A DNA stretch of 35,350 bases from a virus: positions 1 to 35,350 of IMG/VR virus record IMGVR_UViG_3300020213_000072; one strand, given 5' to 3'. Positions 1-35,350 of the stretch are shown here, in pieces. Positions within the stretch are counted from its first letter, which is position 1; every line of letters starts with the position of its first letter. Both the position numbers and the translations under genes were made by a program. Under the pieces are notes generated by a model. That model was not told the origin of the DNA. It saw only the letters and a list, made by a program, of their open reading frames with translations, and ran no database searches.

Positions 1-295
1 CGTAACCGGAACCGTTACCGTAACCGTAACCGTCACCGGAACCGGAACCGGAACCGGAACCGTAACCGTCACCGATTCCTGATCCGTAACCGCAACCGTT
101 ACCGTAACCGGAACCGGAACCGTCACCGGAACCGTCATCGGAACCGGAACCGTAACCGGAACCGTCACCGGAACCGTAACCGGAACCGTTACCGGAACCG
201 TCATCGGAACCGTCATCGGAACCGTCACCGGAACCGTCATCGGAACCGTCACCGTCACCGAATCCTGATCCGTTACCGCAGACTACGCTTTCCAT
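1..295 (-). CDS. Gly-X dipeptide repeat protein, array type MESVVCG (partial at edge)
   Basis: The ATG at 295 lies inside the last codons of the small ORF at 283-360, in another frame, with the motif ATGGAAAGCGTAG. The protein begins MESVVCGNGSGFGDG and then alternates Gly with Ser, Asp, Asn, Tyr or Phe. Several Gly residues are replaced by Asp (SDDG), showing point decay. The frame is open to the window edge. It would continue at 35350 and end at 34987 if the molecule is circular, with a one-base phase problem at the join. No catalytic motif is present. Translation, if it occurs, should rely on coupling to the upstream stop because no ribosome site is visible. The head matches the array proteins at 4838 and 5100. 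Confidence 0.5.
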   Translation of the reverse strand, partial: MESVVCGNGSGFGDGDGSDDGSGDGSDDGSDDGSGNGSGYGSGDGSGYGSGSDDGSGDGSGSGYGNGCGYGSGIGDGYGSGSGSGSGDGYGYGNGSGY

Positions 296-360
296 AGTTT
301 TTCACGCAACGTGTCCCCTAAAAACTCAGCACCATTAATTAAATCTTGAATTGTTTCCAT
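283..360 (-). CDS. chimeric spacer mini-ORF (25 aa), left copy
   Basis: The mini-ORF begins METIQDLINGAEFLGDT and ends LREKLWKA. Its ATG overlaps the TGA of the preceding array ORF (TGATG), and its TAG lies inside the start of the next array ORF. The first 20 bases match the start of the Cys-rich gene at 5619. The middle matches the tape-measure gene at 15080-15123 with 43 of 44 bases identical. The end matches the 3' end of the gene at 4644. It is therefore a recombinant linker rather than an obvious gene, although the frame is open from end to end. Two more copies lie at 5035 and 5291. Confidence 0.5.
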   Translation of the reverse strand: METIQDLINGAEFLGDTLREKLWKA

Positions 361-599
361 CACCCGATTCCGTAACCGTTACGGTTACCGTCACCGGAAC
401 CGTAACCGTCACCGAATCCGAATCCGGAACCGGAACCGTTACCGGAACCGTAACCGTCACCGTCACCGGAACCGTCACCGAATCCGAATCCGGAACCGGA
501 ACCGTTACCGGAAACGTAACCGTAACCGTAACCGGAACCGTCACCGAATCCGAATCCGGAACCGGAACCGAATCCGGAACCGGAACCTAAACTTTCCAT
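360..599 (-). CDS. Gly-X dipeptide repeat protein, array type MESL (79 aa)
   Basis: The start ATG sits in the last bases of the DUF6948-like gene (13-base overlap, ATGGAAAGTTTAG), out of frame with it. The stop is TGA in TGATG, overlapping the mini-ORF at 360. The protein starts MESLGSGSGFG and is almost wholly Gly alternating with Ser, Phe, Asp, Tyr or Asn, ending GNRNGYGIG. The same head and tail recur in the right-hand array protein at 5356. I recall Gly-X repeat ORFs following DUF6948 genes in other phages, but could not check this here. It may be a real low-complexity protein or a by-product of an array in which several frames stay open. Confidence 0.55.
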   Translation of the reverse strand: MESLGSGSGFGSGSGFGFGDGSGYGYGYVSGNGSGSGFGFGDGSGDGDGYGSGNGSGSGFGFGDGYGSGDGNRNGYGIG

Positions 600-871
600 T
601 CAGGAACCCCCGAGATGCTTTCTTTGGCTTTTTTGGTAACGTCTAATATTTCAATAGCCTCAGTCAGAACCACACTAGATACGGGAGCTGGAAATTTACA
701 TTCAAGGGGATGCGATACACCGTCGATTGCGAGCTGGCTTAAAGAGGCGGCACCTTTCCAAAACCATAACCGGCGCGCATTTTTAAGCGTGACCTCTTTA
801 CCATCTTTTTTAGACAAATTACCGGCAAAAACACCGGCGCTATTGGTTCTCACAATTACGTATTTGCTCAT
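587..871 (-). CDS. DUF6948-like phage protein
   Basis: This is a 94-residue protein beginning MSKYVIVRTNSAGVFAG, with the patterns NARRLWFWKGAASLSQLA and a C-terminal helix ending in PEWKV. These match what I remember of the DUF6948 family, small phage proteins of unknown function often sited in early or accessory operons. A strong AGGAG ribosome site lies eight bases before the ATG. It is the last ordinary gene of the minus-strand early operon. Its TAG stop is followed at once by the hexamer array, and the array ORF starts within its last four codons. The function is unknown. Confidence 0.75.
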   Translation of the reverse strand: MSKYVIVRTNSAGVFAGNLSKKDGKEVTLKNARRLWFWKGAASLSQLAIDGVSHPLECKFPAPVSSVVLTEAIEILDVTKKAKESISGVPEWKV

Positions 872-3015: not shown

Positions 3016-3882
3016 TTGGACAAATCAAAATCATTGACGGCAGTTGAAACAAACCTGATTGCACATCAGGGCCAGGCCTGGACAAGTGAGCAAATTGAAC
3101 TTGTCAAACGGACTATATGCAGGGATGCAACCGACGACGAACTAACCTTATTTCGTCACGTCTGTCAGCGAACCGGCCTTGACCCGTTTGCTAGACAAAT
3201 TTACGCGCTCCAGAGAAGCGTGTGGAACGCAAAAACAAATTCAAAAGAGTGGGTGATGAGTATACAGACTTCTATTGATGGGTTTCGGTTGATCGCCGAG
3301 CGTACTGGAAAATATCAGGGTCAAGTGGGCCCGTTTTGGTGTGGGGCTGACGGTGTATGGCGTGATGTGTGGCTTGAAAAAACCGCACCGGCAGCCTCTA
3401 AAGTCGGCGTATGGAAAACTGGCGCAAAAGAGCCAACGTTTGCCGTTGCGAGGTTTGACGCCTACGCTCAAACAAAATCAGACGGAAGCCTTAATTCAAT
3501 GTGGTCGAAAATGGGCGATAACCAACTAGCCAAATGCGCAGAGGCACTGGCCCTTAGGAAGGCATTCCCACAAGAACTTTCCGGATTGTATTCTTCCGAC
3601 GAAATGGGCCAGGCCAACAACGCACATGAAAATAATTTAACACCAAACAATCCGACACACATAGCGCCTCAAATCGAGCCGACGGCTGACCCCAGAATAG
3701 AACTAGGCAAACAAATTCGAGCAGCCACAAATAAACTGGGCATGAACGCTGATGGTTTGAAAGAAATGGTATTTGAACAATATAAAACCACAACGGACAG
3801 TCTAACAAACGACCAAATGGTGGATTTGCTAAACAATATTCATTTTGAAATTGGCCGAAAGGGGAAACGTCATGAGTGGTAG
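3016..3882 (+). CDS. bet: RecT/Bet-family single-strand annealing protein
   Basis: This is a 288-residue protein of the phage Bet/RecT annealing family, which binds single-stranded DNA and anneals complementary strands. Supporting segments are GLDPFARQIYALQR near residue 55, SIQTSIDGFRLIAERTGKY near 85, then DNQLAKCAEALALRKAFP and the closing LSGLYSSDEM. The start is TTG, decided by a strong TAGGAG site six bases upstream. It heads the plus-strand early operon, and the next gene overlaps its end by 11 bases. No 5'-3' exonuclease partner is seen beside it. Its location between the two inverted hexamer arrays makes it the natural suspect for their rearrangement. Confidence 0.9.
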   Translation: MDKSKSLTAVETNLIAHQGQAWTSEQIELVKRTICRDATDDELTLFRHVCQRTGLDPFARQIYALQRSVWNAKTNSKEWVMSIQTSIDGFRLIAERTGKYQGQVGPFWCGADGVWRDVWLEKTAPAASKVGVWKTGAKEPTFAVARFDAYAQTKSDGSLNSMWSKMGDNQLAKCAEALALRKAFPQELSGLYSSDEMGQANNAHENNLTPNNPTHIAPQIEPTADPRIELGKQIRAATNKLGMNADGLKEMVFEQYKTTTDSLTNDQMVDLLNNIHFEIGRKGKRHEW

Positions 3883-4654
3883 CATTGTCGAGTTTGATTC
3901 ATTAAAATCTGATATCTCGATTTTTTTGTCTCCAGTTAAAACCATTACCGTTAGCGACTTTAAGTCCGCGCAGTCTGCCATTGAGGCGGCTAAAAAGGTT
4001 AGGGGTTTCATAAAGCGGGTTGATACAGTTCAAAAGTTATTGGTTGAGCCACTTAACATCCAGGTAAAAACGATTAATGCTTTTGCTAAGGACATCAAAC
4101 AGCCGTTACTTGACGCAGAGTCTTTTATCAAAGCGCGCCTTGTCGCGTTCGAAATAGAACAAGAAAAAATCCGAGAATCAGAAAAAAAGAAACTAGAGGA
4201 ATCCCGAAAGATAGCCGAGTCCGAACTTCTTGCAAAACAAGAAGCCGCGCGGCTCGCTCTACTCGAAAACATAAAAGAGGATAAAGAAGTTTCTGACATT
4301 TTTGGAGCAGGTCCGGAGGCGGTTCCATCCGAAGAAAAGATTGCCGAGTTTGATCAAAAAGCCGCCGAGGCGCTCCTCGTTACAAAAGGACATTTTGAGG
4401 CCAAAAACTGGGAAATCAATCAAATGGGAGTTAAAAACTCTAGAAAAACATGGAAATGCGAGCTTACAGATATTGAATCTGTCCCTAAAGAATACTTAAT
4501 TAAGCAACTAAACTCACAGGCAGTTCTTGCAATGGCGCGCGCTGGAGTTACAAACATTCCGGGCGTGCGCATTTGGCAAGAGACGACGGTCGCAATTGGC
4601 GACCACACCTACATTCCACGCAAGGCGCTTGGTATGAAATCTTATGAACCCTAA
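3872..4654 (+). CDS. coiled-coil protein of the recombination operon
   Basis: The start is ATG 3872 (MSGSIVEFDSLK), with an AGGGG site upstream, rather than the earlier in-frame ATG inside recT. The 260-residue protein is helical through residues 20-155. It has a long charged coiled coil (EQEKIRESEKKKLEESRKIA) and a small C-terminal domain (WEINQMGVKNSRKTWKCELT, then IPGVRIWQETTV). Proteins of this build are often encoded next to phage annealing proteins and may help load or regulate them. No enzymatic motif is visible. The function is inferred only from position. Confidence 0.6.
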   Translation: MSGSIVEFDSLKSDISIFLSPVKTITVSDFKSAQSAIEAAKKVRGFIKRVDTVQKLLVEPLNIQVKTINAFAKDIKQPLLDAESFIKARLVAFEIEQEKIRESEKKKLEESRKIAESELLAKQEAARLALLENIKEDKEVSDIFGAGPEAVPSEEKIAEFDQKAAEALLVTKGHFEAKNWEINQMGVKNSRKTWKCELTDIESVPKEYLIKQLNSQAVLAMARAGVTNIPGVRIWQETTVAIGDHTYIPRKALGMKSYEP

Positions 4655-4850
4655 TCGCGTAACTCTTCCAATTAGAGAACTTGTAGAACTAAACACACAA
4701 AACGGTTTTTTAATCGGGTGCGTACTGGGAATTTTAGCAAAATATGACATTTTAATTTTAGAAGAAGACGCTGTCAGGCTTCGTGACGTTGGTATTAGCG
4801 TTCCTGAGCTGAGAGGGGACACGTTGCGTGAAAAACTATGGAAAGCGTAG
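4644..4850 (+). CDS. hypothetical protein, 68 aa, last gene before right arrays
   Basis: The start ATG overlaps the stop of the coiled-coil gene. The protein begins MNPNRVTLPIRELVELNTQ. It has a hydrophobic stretch (GFLIGCVLGILAKYDILIL) and ends GDTLREKLWKA. No family is recognised. Its last 36 or so bases recur in every spacer mini-ORF on both sides of the early region, so its 3' end has been copied with the array. The array ORF starts inside its last four codons, with the same 13-base geometry as at the DUF6948-like gene. Confidence 0.6.
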   Translation: MNPNRVTLPIRELVELNTQNGFLIGCVLGILAKYDILILEEDAVRLRDVGISVPELRGDTLREKLWKA

Positions 4851-5035
4851 TCTGCGGTAACGGATCAGGATTCGGTGACGGTTCCGGTTCCGGATTCGGT
4901 TCCGGTTCCGGTTCCGGTAACGGTTCCGGTTACGGATTCGGTTACGGTTCCGGTTCCGGATTCGGATTCGGTGACGGTTCCGGTTCCGGTTCCGGTGACG
5001 GTTACGGTTCCGGTGACGGTGACGGAATCGGGTGA
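4838..5035 (+). CDS. Gly-X dipeptide repeat protein, type MESVVCG, right copy 1
   Basis: This is a 65-residue protein starting MESVVCGNGSGFGDG and continuing as Gly alternating with Ser, Phe, Asn, Tyr and Asp, ending GDGDGIG. The ATG overlaps the end of the gene at 4644, and the TGA overlaps the mini-ORF at 5035. No ribosome site of its own is visible, so re-initiation is the likely route. The head is shared with the left array at 295 and the copy at 5100. Confidence 0.55.
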   Translation: MESVVCGNGSGFGDGSGSGFGSGSGSGNGSGYGFGYGSGSGFGFGDGSGSGSGDGYGSGDGDGIG

Positions 5036-5112
5036 TGGAAACAATTCAAGATTTAATTAATGGTGCTGAGTTTTTAGGGGACACGTTGCGTGAAAAACTA
5101 TGGAAAGCGTAG
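5035..5112 (+). CDS. chimeric spacer mini-ORF (25 aa), right copy 1
   Basis: This has the same 25-residue product as at 283-360, ending LREKLWKA, and starts in TGATG. It contains the tape-measure-like segment (DLINGAEFLGDT) joined to the copied 3' end of the gene at 4644. Whether it is translated is unknown. It is listed because the frame is conserved in all three spacers. Confidence 0.45.
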   Translation: METIQDLINGAEFLGDTLREKLWKA

Positions 5113-5291
5113 TCTGCGGTAACGGATCAGGATTCGGTGACGGTTCCGGATCAGGATTCGGTAACGGTGACGGTTCCGGATTCGGATTCGGTGACGGTTC
5201 CGGTTCCGGTGACGGTTCCGGTTACGGTTCCGGTTCCGGATTCGGTTCCGGTTCCGGTTCCGGTTCCGGTTCCGGTGACGGAATCGGGTGA
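5100..5291 (+). CDS. Gly-X dipeptide repeat protein, type MESVVCG, right copy 2
   Basis: This is a 63-residue protein with head MESVVCGNGSGFGDGSGSGF and tail GSGDGIG. It consists of Gly alternating with Ser, Asp, Phe, Tyr and Asn throughout. Start and stop overlap the flanking mini-ORFs exactly as in the other copies. The unit order differs from copy 1 after the first dozen residues, which shows independent evolution of the array body while the head is retained. Confidence 0.5.
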   Translation: MESVVCGNGSGFGDGSGSGFGNGDGSGFGFGDGSGSGDGSGYGSGSGFGSGSGSGSGSGDGIG

Positions 5292-5368
5292 TGGAAACAA
5301 TTCAAGATTTAATTAATGGTGCTGAGTTTTTAGGGGACACGTTGCGTGAAAAACTATGGAAAGTTTAG
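5291..5368 (+). CDS. chimeric spacer mini-ORF, right copy 2 (ends KV)
   Basis: This matches the other mini-ORFs except that its last codons read LREKLWKV. The end switches from the 4644-type tail (AAAGCGTAG) to the DUF6948-type tail (AAAGTTTAG) within the shared bases ATGGAAAG. This is direct sequence evidence of exchange between the left and right array loci. Confidence 0.45.
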   Translation: METIQDLINGAEFLGDTLREKLWKV

Positions 5369-5619
5369 GTTCCGGATCAGGAGTCGGATTAGGATTCGGT
5401 AACGGTTCCGGTTCCGGTGACGGTAACGGTAACGGATCAGGATTCGGTTACGGTTACGGTTACGGTAACGGTAACGGTAACGGATCAGGATTCGGTGACG
5501 GTTACGGTTCCGGATTCGGTTCCGGATTCGGTTCCAGTTACGGTTCCGGTTACGGATCAGGATTCGGTTACGGTGACGGTTCCGGTGACGGTAACCGTAA
5601 CGGTTACGGAATCGGGTGA
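5356..5619 (+). CDS. Gly-X dipeptide repeat protein, type MESL, right copy 3
   Basis: This is an 87-residue protein beginning MESLGSGSGVGLGFGNG and ending GNRNGYGIG, the same head and tail as the array protein behind the DUF6948-like gene on the other side. The body is Gly with Ser, Asn, Phe, Tyr and Asp. Its TGA overlaps the ATG of the Cys-rich gene (TGATG). The copy implies that a DUF6948-linked array once stood, or was copied, directly upstream of the Cys-rich gene. Confidence 0.55.
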   Translation: MESLGSGSGVGLGFGNGSGSGDGNGNGSGFGYGYGYGNGNGNGSGFGDGYGSGFGSGFGSSYGSGYGSGFGYGDGSGDGNRNGYGIG

Positions 5620-5795
5620 TGGAAACAATTCAAGATTTGACTGATCGTTGTGATTGTCGTGATTGCCTGTTGTTAGATCTAGAAGCGCGCTGCGCTTTTG
5701 ATTGCGACGATGATCGGTGCGCTGGCTGTCAGGAACTTGACGAAGCAAACGCACAAAAAGAGTTTGACTGTAACTGCGCGCTAGGGATTCGCTGA
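5619..5795 (+). CDS. small cysteine-rich protein, 58 aa
   Basis: The protein begins METIQDLTDRCDCRDCLLLD and has nine cysteines in 58 residues, mostly as CDC, CxxC-like and CxC pairs in a very acidic context (FDCDDDRCAGC). It could bind metal (zinc or iron-sulphur) or be a small secreted-like knot, but there is no signal peptide. The start overlaps the TGA of the last array ORF. Its first 20 bases are copied into all spacer mini-ORFs. The 3' end overlaps the convergent VRR-NUC gene by 15 bases, and no terminator is seen between them. Confidence 0.55.
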   Translation: METIQDLTDRCDCRDCLLLDLEARCAFDCDDDRCAGCQELDEANAQKEFDCNCALGIR

Positions 5796-13052: not shown

Positions 13053-13840
13053 AAAGTTTCCAGAACGCTAAGACCCGAATCAAAATAACTAAACACGTTG
13101 TGTTTTAGTGAAGAGTCTCCTGTAATTTTCCCATAAATGAAATATCTATCCTTATTAAACAGCTCTTCGGTTGAGTCTAAATCTATCGCTATGCATCTTG
13201 CATTGCCGACTCGTTCATAGATTTCGTGAAGCGTGTTTGCGTCTTCGTCAGTGAATGCCGTAAAATCAAAACCCAAAGAGCGAATGCTAGGAAAAATATC
13301 AGTATACGAATGCCCGTAGTCTGTTCTTACGTTCTTAGACTGATCTACTGTCTTTTCTGAAAAACCCTTGTTAGGTCCCTGAGCTAGTAAAGTGGCCTTA
13401 CTTAAAATAATTTTAGGTACTTCTAGATAAGAATAAGCTGAAACCGGATCTGTTATTGAAAGTCTCCAGTAACGATACTCCTGATCGATTGTGAAATAAT
13501 GAGACGCCAGGCCGTTGGTCTCGTCGATCGTTAAAGCCTGATCAACCGGAGGAGATGTCCATACGTTTGTATGTGACGCCTGTATTTTAATAACCGCGTT
13601 AGATGAGAACTTAACCCCGACGAAAGAATCAAAAACTAACACAACGGAATCAATGGCTTCTTTGGTTTTGATGTCAATTACAACCGACTGGTTAAGAGTT
13701 GAGGTAGTTCTCCATGTAAAACCCCTAATTTGATTTTTAAGGTTTAAAACAGGAAACTCCGAATCTGCGCTAGACGCGGTCAGTATTGTGGCCGACTGCC
13801 AAACGTAGTTAAAATCTAAAATTCTAAATTCACAGCTCAT
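13049..13840 (-). CDS. distal-tail-like protein with discoidin-type domain, 263 aa
   Basis: It follows the tape measure with an ATGA overlap, the usual place for the distal tail protein. The N-terminal 150 residues look like a discoidin / F5-8C sandwich (FPVLNLKNQIRGFTWRTTST, VVIDIKTKEAIDSVVLVFDS, YFTIDQEYRYWRLSITDP). The C-terminal part (GHSYTDIFPSIRSLGFDFTA and following) resembles the belt domain of distal tail proteins. It probably joins the tail tube to the tip hub. Confidence 0.6.
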   Translation of the reverse strand: MSCEFRILDFNYVWQSATILTASSADSEFPVLNLKNQIRGFTWRTTSTLNQSVVIDIKTKEAIDSVVLVFDSFVGVKFSSNAVIKIQASHTNVWTSPPVDQALTIDETNGLASHYFTIDQEYRYWRLSITDPVSAYSYLEVPKIILSKATLLAQGPNKGFSEKTVDQSKNVRTDYGHSYTDIFPSIRSLGFDFTAFTDEDANTLHEIYERVGNARCIAIDLDSTEELFNKDRYFIYGKITGDSSLKHNVFSYFDSGLSVLETL

Positions 13841-16011
13841 GCGCTTAGTCTCCTGCCGTTTCGGACCTGTTCGTTAACCGCATTGAATATTTGTTCGCCA
13901 CCAACACTCACGCTAATGGGGCCCTGATTTCCAATTCGTTCAGCAATAAGCAAAAGAATGTCTCGTGAAGATTCTTGAGAATTAATAAAATCTTTTAAAT
14001 CCCTATTTTGATCACGAGATAAAACGCGCTCACCGGGAGCTAGGATAGCTGGAAAATTATCTTTAAGACCAGTCCCCGGAATCTCAGTCATACCGGTCGC
14101 TAGTTTTTGTGACGCTATATTTGCTATCTGGACACCCGTTGCGACGCCGACCGTAGCGGCTAGAATAAAGTTAAACGGAGGAGGGGCAGACGATAACGCC
14201 TTTTGGATTGCCGCATAACCGTCAACAGTAGCTTGGGCCAATGCGGCCGCCTTACCTATTTCAAATAGTTCTTTGTTTCCTGTTTTAGTTAGTGTGGCTA
14301 GATTTCCAAATGATTGAGATACAGCCGACACCTTCTGAGCTTCTAGCTCTTTTTCTTTTTGAACTTGTTTCGCCTTTGCCGCAACCATTGCGTCAGTTAG
14401 TTTGTTTTGTTTGTCTAAGGTGCTGGCATTAGACGCGTCTTGACTCAATGAAATATCCTGACCATTTGCGGCCCTGATCGCGGCAAGATGCGCGTTTTTG
14501 CTTTCTTCTGCGCTTATGATTGAATTAATTTTTAAATTATTCTGTTCTAGCTCTGCGATTGATTGTTCGTCATTGAGAACCAGAAGAGCTTCGTTTCTCT
14601 TTTGAAGTGCCTCAATTTGTTTTATGTTGGCTTCTTCTGTAGCAATAACCTGTGCGTCTGCAGACTCTTGAGCAGATATTTTACCCTGAAGAAACGCCTG
14701 ATTGATTTGATCTAACTTAATAATAAAGTCGTCTAGCGGGCCTGTGTTTTTATACTTTTCAATTAACTTAAGCCCTTCGTCACCTGCTTTAATCTGGGCG
14801 TCTGAAAATGTAACCATCGCGCTAGACGCTGACAAAACATTGACGCTTACGTTTTCAACACCTCTGCCAACTCTTGAAAGACTTCCTTCTAATTTAATTC
14901 CAACCTGGTCTACCTCTGATATCGCATGGCTAAAATTAACTGCGGGAGTGGCCGCATCGGTTACATCTTCTTTAAATCCAGCAAACGCATCCTTGATAGA
15001 ATCAAGAGCAGACTTTCCCTTATTCGCAAACGAATCAAACGCAGTAGCTATCCCCTTAACGGGAGCGATAGCAATCTGAAACGTGTCTCCTAAAAACTCA
15101 GCACCATTAATTAAATCTTGAATAACGCTAAGAGCCGCCGATGCTGATTTAACTAAAAGAACCAACGTCTCGCCTGCAAGTATTTTTAGTTCCTTTTCGT
15201 TCTTACCAACCGACGCGGATAAGAAATCAAATAGTTTAGATACTTCTTTAATGCCGTCTATAACGACTTTATTTTCTACAACGACGCCGCCGATTGCTTC
15301 CTGAAGGTTATTGAACCTATTTGAGGCTTGAGATAGAGCTCCCGAAAAAGTATTGACTTGAGCCTGAGCGGCCCCCCCAAATCTAGAGTTAAGAGTTTCT
15401 AGTGTGTTTGCAAATGTTTGTGCGTCGGTTGTCCCTTTTCTAATCTCAATCCCTTGACGCTGAAGTGCGGACACGTTCCCGTTTGCTGCCTTAGCGACTA
15501 AGCTTGTGGCCTCCTCTAGACTCACACCAAGCGCGGCGGCCAAATCAGCAGCGGCAACAGTCGCTTTTTGTAATCCCTCTTGATCTAATCTTGTGAGTGT
15601 TTCAAGAAAAGCTCCCGAGCTAATAATAGCGTCATCCGAGAATGTTGTTACAGCCTCAAGACCTTCAGCAAACTTTTTAAAATCTTGTGTTGATTGTTTA
15701 GCGTCCCGTCCGGCAAGAGCAAACGCTACGCTTAATTTATTTAAAGCGTCTGCCTGCTCTTGAGCCGCGTGAATACCCTGCACAACAAACGTCTGGAATA
15801 ACTCACGGGCTACATCACCTAGTTTTTTAATAGATCCGATAAGGACCTGAGAACTAAAAACACCGGCAAACACTTCGCCGGACCTTTTAACTGAGCTGTT
15901 CCCTTTTTCTATCGTCTTTTCTAAAGAATCAAGGCGTTTGATAACGTCGTCGATTGCCTTGGCCGCATTCCCAGATGCTTCTAGCCCTATCTCAATTTTT
16001 TCATCTGCCAA
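13837..16011 (-). CDS. tail tape measure protein, 724 aa
   Basis: This is the longest coiled-coil protein of the tail module, directly after the chaperone genes. It has an N-terminal helical region with the heptad IDDVIKRLDSLEKTIEKGNS. A PhageMin-like core follows around 80-250 (LATKAANGN-type segment SLVAKAANGNVSALQRQGIE, then RFGGAAQAQVNTFSGALSQA). Ala/Gly-rich membrane-like stretches lie near 600-650, with a C-terminal PGERVLSRDQNRDL. At roughly 1.5 angstrom per residue it predicts a tail near 110 nm. The start is TTG. Codons for residues near 297-310 (VIQDLINGAEFLGDT) share 43 of 44 bases with the array spacers. Confidence 0.9.
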   Translation of the reverse strand: MADEKIEIGLEASGNAAKAIDDVIKRLDSLEKTIEKGNSSVKRSGEVFAGVFSSQVLIGSIKKLGDVARELFQTFVVQGIHAAQEQADALNKLSVAFALAGRDAKQSTQDFKKFAEGLEAVTTFSDDAIISSGAFLETLTRLDQEGLQKATVAAADLAAALGVSLEEATSLVAKAANGNVSALQRQGIEIRKGTTDAQTFANTLETLNSRFGGAAQAQVNTFSGALSQASNRFNNLQEAIGGVVVENKVVIDGIKEVSKLFDFLSASVGKNEKELKILAGETLVLLVKSASAALSVIQDLINGAEFLGDTFQIAIAPVKGIATAFDSFANKGKSALDSIKDAFAGFKEDVTDAATPAVNFSHAISEVDQVGIKLEGSLSRVGRGVENVSVNVLSASSAMVTFSDAQIKAGDEGLKLIEKYKNTGPLDDFIIKLDQINQAFLQGKISAQESADAQVIATEEANIKQIEALQKRNEALLVLNDEQSIAELEQNNLKINSIISAEESKNAHLAAIRAANGQDISLSQDASNASTLDKQNKLTDAMVAAKAKQVQKEKELEAQKVSAVSQSFGNLATLTKTGNKELFEIGKAAALAQATVDGYAAIQKALSSAPPPFNFILAATVGVATGVQIANIASQKLATGMTEIPGTGLKDNFPAILAPGERVLSRDQNRDLKDFINSQESSRDILLLIAERIGNQGPISVSVGGEQIFNAVNEQVRNGRRLSA
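15080..15123 (-). repeat. tape-measure segment duplicated in the array spacers
   Basis: These 44 bases inside the tape measure gene are identical, with one mismatch, to 308-351 and, in opposite orientation, to the spacers near 5044-5087 and 5300-5343. They are flanked by ATTCAAGATTT on one side, shared with the start of the Cys-rich gene at 5619. On the other side is AGGAGACACGTT, shared with one mismatch by the gene at 4644. The match is to unique coding sequence, not to the low-complexity hexamers. Confidence 0.95.
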
Positions 16012-34938: not shown

Positions 34939-34987
34939 CCACAAATTTAAGCATTGGATGCTGTGTCAATTCAATCGTTTCTTTCAT
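34879..34987 (-). CDS. short ORF between terminal array and dam, 36 aa
   Basis: The frame begins MKETIELTQHPMLKFVDETN and ends LLLWRQAKNGA. Its ATG overlaps the TGA of the terminal array frame (TGATG), the same geometry as the Cys-rich gene on the other side. It overlaps the first 60 bases of dam in another frame, so it may serve only to couple translation into dam. No family is recognised. Confidence 0.35.
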
Positions 34988-35350
34988 CACACGTAACCGG
35001 AACCGTAACCGTCACCGATTCCTGATCCGTAACCGCAACCGTTACCGTAACCGGAACCGTCACCGTAACCGTTACCGTAACCGGAACCGTCACCGTAACC
35101 GTAACCGTCACCGGAACCGGAACCGGAACCGTAACCGTCACCGATTCCTGATCCGTAACCGCAACCGTTACCGTAACCGGAACCGTCACCGTAACCGTTA
35201 CCGTAACCGGAACCGTCACCGTAACCGTAACCGTCACCGGAACCGGAACCGGAACCGGAACCGTAACCGTCACCGATTCCTGATCCGTAACCGCAACCGT
35301 TACCGTAACCGGAACCGGAACCGTCACCGGAACCGTAACCGGAACCGGAA
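34987..35350 (-). CDS. Gly-X dipeptide repeat protein, terminal array (partial)
   Basis: Read on the minus strand from the window edge, the Gly-X frame is open to TGA at 34989-34987 and ends GSGYV, then TGATG. It is the likely continuation of the array starting at 295. Units such as GNGCGYGSGIGDG recur three times. The terminal Val arises because the last hexamer runs into GTGTGATG. Confidence 0.45.
   Translation of the reverse strand, partial: SGSGYGSGDGSGSGYGNGCGYGSGIGDGYGSGSGSGSGDGYGYGDGSGYGNGYGDGSGYGNGCGYGSGIGDGYGSGSGSGDGYGYGDGSGYGNGYGDGSGYGNGCGYGSGIGDGYGSGYV
34990..35350 (-). repeat. terminal hexamer array with higher-order repeat
   Basis: The array contains the same CGGNNN hexamers, organised into a longer repeat. 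The marker GATTCCTGATCC (plus strand) falls near 35017, 35143 and 35275, and once more near position 73 of the window. Successive copies are 126 and about 132 bases apart, that is 21 and 22 hexamers. They differ by one extra ACCGGA unit. This is recent block duplication with single-unit slippage. It matches the left edge of the window, supporting circularity or terminal redundancy. Confidence 0.9.

Follow-up and report, generated by a model that had tools for sequence, protein, structure and literature searches.

Three identical chimeric spacers between Gly-X hexamer-array genes of a viral genome probably record a double template switch or strand annealing in vivo

The window analyzed here, a 35,350-nt stretch of viral DNA (IMG/VR record IMGVR_UViG_3300020213_000072), carries two inverted clusters of Gly-X hexamer-array ORFs (arrays A and B), within which three identical copies of a 78-bp spacer separate successive array units (Table 1). 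The locus raises the question of how a sequence put together from pieces of several genes came to lie between array units three times over and in two different arrays. The initial annotation had stated that each spacer joins the start of a Cys-rich gene, a segment of the tape measure gene and the 3' end of the small gene starting at 4644 (gene 4644), and sequence alignment of the spacers to all three sites bears out both the coordinates and the sources.

Table 1. Arrays, spacers, spacer sources and neighboring genes in the window.
Feature	Position	Strand	Remarks
Array unit A2	1..295	-	Runs off the left contig end
Spacer/mini-ORF 3, inverted array A	283..360	-	278-365 is the reverse complement of 5030-5117 (88 nt identical)
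Array unit A1	360..599	-	Directly after and overlapping DUF6948
DUF6948 gene	587..871	-	First in module; Pfam PF22253, E 1.4e-31, 108.9 bits, above the cut-off of 27
RecT single-strand annealing recombinase gene	3016..3882	+	PF03837, E 3.2e-28
Gene 4644	4644..4850	+	Small gene upstream of array B
Spacer right-end source	4814..4855	+	Gene 4644 3' end and unit B1 start; 42 nt or more exact
Array unit B1	4838..5035	+	Gly-X hexamer ORF (MESVVCGNGSG..GDGIG)
Spacer/mini-ORF 1, array B	5035..5112	+	Encodes METIQDLINGAEFLGDTLREKLWKA, then stop
Array unit B2	5100..5291	+	MESVVC..GDGIG
Spacer/mini-ORF 2, array B	5291..5368	+	5286-5363 identical to 5030-5107 of spacer 1 (78 nt); ends ..LWKV, then stop
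Array unit B3	5356..5619	+	MESLG..NRNGYGIG; start and end as in unit A1
Spacer left-end source	5614..5638	+	Stop of unit B3 and Cys-rich gene start (METIQDL); 25 nt exact
Cys-rich gene	5619..5795	+
Tape measure gene	13837..16011	-	724 aa, intact; phrog_9483/3336/1506, phrog_9483 E 1e-17
Spacer middle source	15080..15123	-	Within the tape measure gene; 43/44 identity
Right-contig-end array	34987..35350	-	Ends GYGSGYV, then stop; 119 nt identical (17-135 = 35218-35336)

The sense-strand spacer sequence is GGGTGATGGAAACAATTCAAGATTTAATTAATGGTGCTGAGTTTTTAGGGGACACGTTGCGTGAAAAACTATGGAAAG. Its match to the tape measure gene is exact over 35 nt and covers 44 nt with one mismatch (E 4.4e-16 in the genome), and genome-wide, no other dispersed near-exact repeat of at least 25 nt occurs outside the arrays. 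Both joins described in the initial annotation were recovered: the join between the Cys-rich and tape measure pieces falls in ATTCAAGATTT, 11 nt common to both sources, and the join between the tape measure and gene 4644 pieces falls in AGG(A/G)GACACGTT, 12 nt with one mismatch. The microhomology exceeds chance at both joins, exact in the first case and with a single mismatch in the second; at random joins in this genome, a microhomology of at least 11 nt occurs with a frequency of 3.5e-5. Secondary structure was considered as a cause of the joins and set aside, the array strand scoring weakly (z -1.9) and the spacer strand giving no signal (z -0.7).

All three segments of the spacer are read in their native frames, yielding a 25-codon mini-ORF composed of METIQDL from the Cys-rich gene, IQDLINGAEFLGDT from the tape measure protein and GDTLREKLWKA from gene 4644. 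The start of the mini-ORF overlaps the stop codon of the array unit before it (TGATG; unit B1 in the case of spacer 1) and its end overlaps the start of the next one (CTATGGAAAGCGTAG; unit B2 in the case of spacer 1), so that translational coupling through the operon is preserved. Of the nine ways of phasing the two joins, just one leaves the frame open as far as the next unit, and this is the combination observed; its 1 in 9 chance without selection counts against the mechanism discussed below, and selection for the preserved coupling would favor retention of the spacer. Furthermore, the spacer at 5291-5368 draws on a fourth source: within the 8 nt ATGGAAAG it changes from a 4644-type end to a DUF6948-type end, with the result that its terminal LWKV and stop are followed by MESLG.., the start that array A has after the DUF6948 gene. 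This fourth source, the in-frame relay and the DUF6948-array module described below go beyond the account given in the initial annotation.

An ORF with coupled start and stop, present in three copies, might also be read as an older, real 25-codon gene that gave the Cys-rich gene its start, gene 4644 its end and the tape measure gene the matching piece. The middle of the spacer, however, belongs to a tape measure protein of 724 aa that aligns to PHROGs from residue 109 to residue 722, relatives of the spacer were not found in viral contigs, and a single transfer into the spacer is more parsimonious than three in the opposite direction, all of which makes an older gene a highly improbable source. 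An exact left-junction scan of the viral collection returned no ordinary 80-bp gene in relatives, but this absence is weak evidence since the collection contains no close relative spanning the region. The whole-phage relatives comprise only L008 (7.7 kb in the terminase region, with 99-100% protein identity) and distant matches, none of which covers the arrays. Among phages and viral contigs, no homologues were found for gene 4644, the Cys-rich gene or a 269-aa gene with a weak exonuclease profile, and the tape measure segment gave only matches with E of 3 or more in other phages.

We consider the spacers to be, probably, an unusual in vivo rearrangement scar of a known general kind, left by a double template switch or by strand annealing. 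During copying of the array gene between gene 4644 and the Cys-rich gene, the growing strand would come off its template inside the terminal part of gene 4644, pair with 12 bases of the tape measure gene (one mismatch) and copy 33 bases from it, and then pair with the start of the Cys-rich gene over 11 bases, whereupon the array would be copied a second time. The predicted product is one array gene duplicated in tandem, tail to head, with a templated insertion between the copies, and units B1, B2 and B3 are indeed arranged tail to head and separated by joins of the Cys-rich start to the 4644 end. In antisense synthesis, the end AACGTGTCCCCT would pair with the tape measure gene over the 12 bases, with an internal mismatch and three matched bases at the 3' end, and after the 33 copied bases AAATCTTGAAT would pair over 11 bases with the Cys-rich start. 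The direction of synthesis bears on this proposal, as sense-strand synthesis would find only 3 exact bases at the second join before the mismatch, and the 12-base pairing needs antisense synthesis. This explanation draws on the identity of the pieces, the microhomology, the reading frame, the presence of three copies in two arrays and the fast array change seen in cultured phages.

The same product would result from RecT-mediated annealing of single strands. The recT gene lies approximately 1 kb upstream of array B, and a RecT-type annealing protein may assist the process. The initial annotation had the tape measure gene bridge the two ends of an array unit during strand annealing; the bridge remains the most economical account, but strand annealing does no better than replication template switching, and the two explain the spacer data equally well. 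Polymerase jumping as opposed to strand annealing, the direction of synthesis, the role of RecT and the contribution of selection are components of the scheme that we infer.

A similar signature could also be generated in vitro, by a double jump in library amplification (phi29 MDA or PCR) followed by placement of the resulting piece in both arrays by the assembler. The junctions of MDA chimeras fall in short complementary stretches, the longest being 21 bp (PMC1855051), a signature that the spacers share, and the contig is metagenomic. In the same study, 85% of MDA chimeras were inverted and 15% were in direct orientation. At this locus the tape measure piece lies on the opposite map strand, so that each jump is an inverted join and the two jumps together restore the strand and produce a direct duplication. 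A lone MDA jump would yield a piece in inverted orientation. With array and tape measure pieces on opposite map strands, the jumps out and back constitute two events, and two such jumps within 33 nt would be unusual for a single in vitro chimera. Moreover, the same chimera is found three times with different neighbors, in one case with an 8-nt join to a fourth source, and it is in frame with its start and stop overlaps kept. Unlike MDA chimeras, the spacers represent a double jump that returns to the region of its start, in frame and three times in two arrays, and we regard an in vitro origin as improbable.

The alternative of an assembly artefact, in which unrelated paths are joined via overlaps of 11-12 bases in a repeat-tangled graph, gains some plausibility from the fact that both contig ends lie in hexamer arrays. 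Gly-X arrays cut short-read assemblies, with 22 of 80 DUF6948 contigs ending at most 700 nt downstream of DUF6948. Common de Bruijn assemblers, however, require at least 21 shared bases, which exceeds the 11-12 bases available at the joins. The longest exact repeat in the contig measures 137 nt and no 141-mer occurs twice, which fits assembly at k=141, a setting at which 78-nt spacers are resolvable. It is reasonable to argue, as the initial annotation did, that ordinary assembly does not join sequences over an overlap of only 11-12 bases. In addition, the pieces match one short tape measure segment and are in the right reading frame at both joins. We deem misassembly very unlikely, and, judged from the contig sequence, an artefact of either kind is unlikely.

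An array at either end of the contig points to a genome that may be circular or permuted and was cut within array A; in the circular case, the right-contig-end array is probably the rest of array A.

FoSTeS/MMBIR, together with templated insertions at tandem-duplication junctions, has mainly been described in eukaryotic genomes (e.g. PMC5120786). The spacer locus shares with FoSTeS/MMBIR a tail-to-head duplication, filler from a distant site and microhomology at both joins, and it differs in residing in a phage genome, in its longer microhomology (11-12 nt) and in an in-frame filler kept in three copies. The candidate agent would likewise differ, being phage RecT instead of host break repair in a mechanism that is putative.

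A rearrangement of this kind in array B would leave the copy in array A to be explained. The inverted arrays (1-599 and 4838-5619) share up to 123 identical bases, and recombination between them would spread the scar-bearing unit to array A, after which the hexamer words between the scars would keep rearranging. Such recombination between arrays A and B would also invert segment 600-4838, a 4.2-kb stretch that carries recT and a Fis-type HTH gene. The spacer serves as a molecular tag: its presence as three identical scars shows copying of array units and their exchange between two loci. Between units B1 and B2 there are 14 word edits even though the spacers on both sides are identical, which argues that the scar is young and that the arrays change quickly. 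The divergence of words between identical scars further argues that this change is much faster than point mutation.

Cultured phages show the same behavior. The flanks of the arrays in Pectobacterium phages Ymer (L308) and Amona (L310) match perfectly for 1771 nt on the upstream side and 1280 nt on the downstream side (3,051 in total), and yet their arrays measure 222 and 204 nt, respectively, an 18-nt difference, and are separated by 12 edits of about 30 words; in a control with shuffled words, 14 or more edits were obtained. Ymer and Abuela were obtained on different host strains and share one and the same array, and the difference between Ymer and Amona is therefore not random assembly noise. 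Hexamer arrays thus change faster than their flanks. The words of Ymer and Amona differ mainly at codon positions 1 and 2, and hardly at position 3. A hypervariable array beside identical flanks renders testable both the mechanism of diversification and the function of a predicted Sm-like protein with a variable partner, and the spacer provides a defined test for double template switching by phage annealing proteins in vivo.

The predicted Sm-like protein is the product of the DUF6948 gene, with which Gly-X arrays are closely associated. In the viral collection, Gly-X hexamer arrays were found in at least 120 stretches, and 51 of the 89 mixed-word array loci have a DUF6948 gene at most 200 nt upstream on the same strand. 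Conversely, 571 viral stretches encode a DUF6948 relative, and among the best 80 of these loci (L168-L247), picked by similarity and not at random, a Gly-X array directly follows DUF6948 in 80/80, is at least 48 nt long in 75/80 and overlaps or abuts the DUF6948 stop with its start in 77/80, the commonest arrangement placing the array ATG exactly 10 nt before the stop. Contigs L178, L181, L186, L188, L189, L194 and others end in or just after the array, as does the window. Bacterial and archaeal genome bins presented an array of at least 18 nt at 51 of 59 DUF6948 matches, the remaining 8 being mostly cut contigs or doubtful matches, and all six public phage records first examined (6/6) had an array after DUF6948, in varying frame. 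DUF6948 and its overlapping Gly-X array hence define a near-universal two-gene phage module that is widespread and apparently undescribed: a literature search returned no paper naming DUF6948 and none on Gly-X peptides in phages. Compared with the spacer scar, this module may be the larger novelty.

The AlphaFold2 model of DUF6948, calculated from an alignment of viral-contig sequences only, is a Sm-like beta barrel with a pLDDT of 95.5. Foldseek returned Sm/LSm chains as its top PDB matches (probability 1.00, best E 2.6e-3, 11-21% identity), and no sequence match to DUF6948 was found in the PDB. DUF6948 is hence predicted to adopt a Sm/LSm-like fold. Unlike Sm, LSm and Hfq proteins, to which its likeness comes from the predicted model, DUF6948 is accompanied by a separate overlapping Gly-X ORF.

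Array A is a standard instance of this module, its ATG lying 10 nt before the DUF6948 stop. The window departs from standard DUF6948-array loci in its chimeric spacers and in a further array cluster, inverted relative to the first, that follows gene 4644, a gene without detectable homology to DUF6948. At its end, gene 4644 overlaps the start of the array in the 10-nt arrangement seen for DUF6948 genes. Gene 4644 might on this account be a diverged DUF6948/Sm-like paralogue, a weak candidate in which only the overlap geometry matches: no profile similarity was detected (hhalign probability 0.1) and the single-sequence model is helical and of low confidence (pLDDT 55.5).

Tail-to-head or leader-repeated array units with short spacers are present in 6 of 212 loci, namely the window and L069, L073, L146, L214 and L108. 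The L073 spacer consists of the start of the downstream gene and the end of the upstream gene, and forms a four-codon relay ORF with start and stop overlaps. No third-party filler was found in the other tandem-duplicated arrays within their contig stretches, and the event that carries such filler is therefore a single instance, that of the window.

Direct repeats flank the DUF6948-array pair in L212 (73 nt, 3913-3985/4454-4526), L119 (39/40, 6565-6604/7097-7136), L204 (27 nt, 3939-3965/4451-4477) and L265 (32/33, 2183-2215/2840-2872), and exact flanking repeats of at least 15 nt occur in 5 of the 59 loci tested as against 0 of 164 controls. These repeats look like insertion footprints of a mobile module; no direct repeat was found flanking the window's own arrays. 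Taken jointly, the observations allow a tentative reading, conceivable though less than even in our estimation, of an undescribed mobile and hypervariable module that pairs a Sm-like protein with a reshuffling low-complexity partner, and in which one template-switching process would reshuffle words, duplicate units and insert the module with target duplications of 27-73 nt.

The two components of the module are also found joined. In L128 (951-1514, - strand), DUF6948 is fused in frame to its own Gly-X array, which suggests that the two act together. Gly-X arrays further occur as inserts near the N-terminus of a larger protein, which starts with MEELIK or MEEQIR and contains LTGSC..GR, in L166 (3001-3560), L081, L104, L148 and L151.
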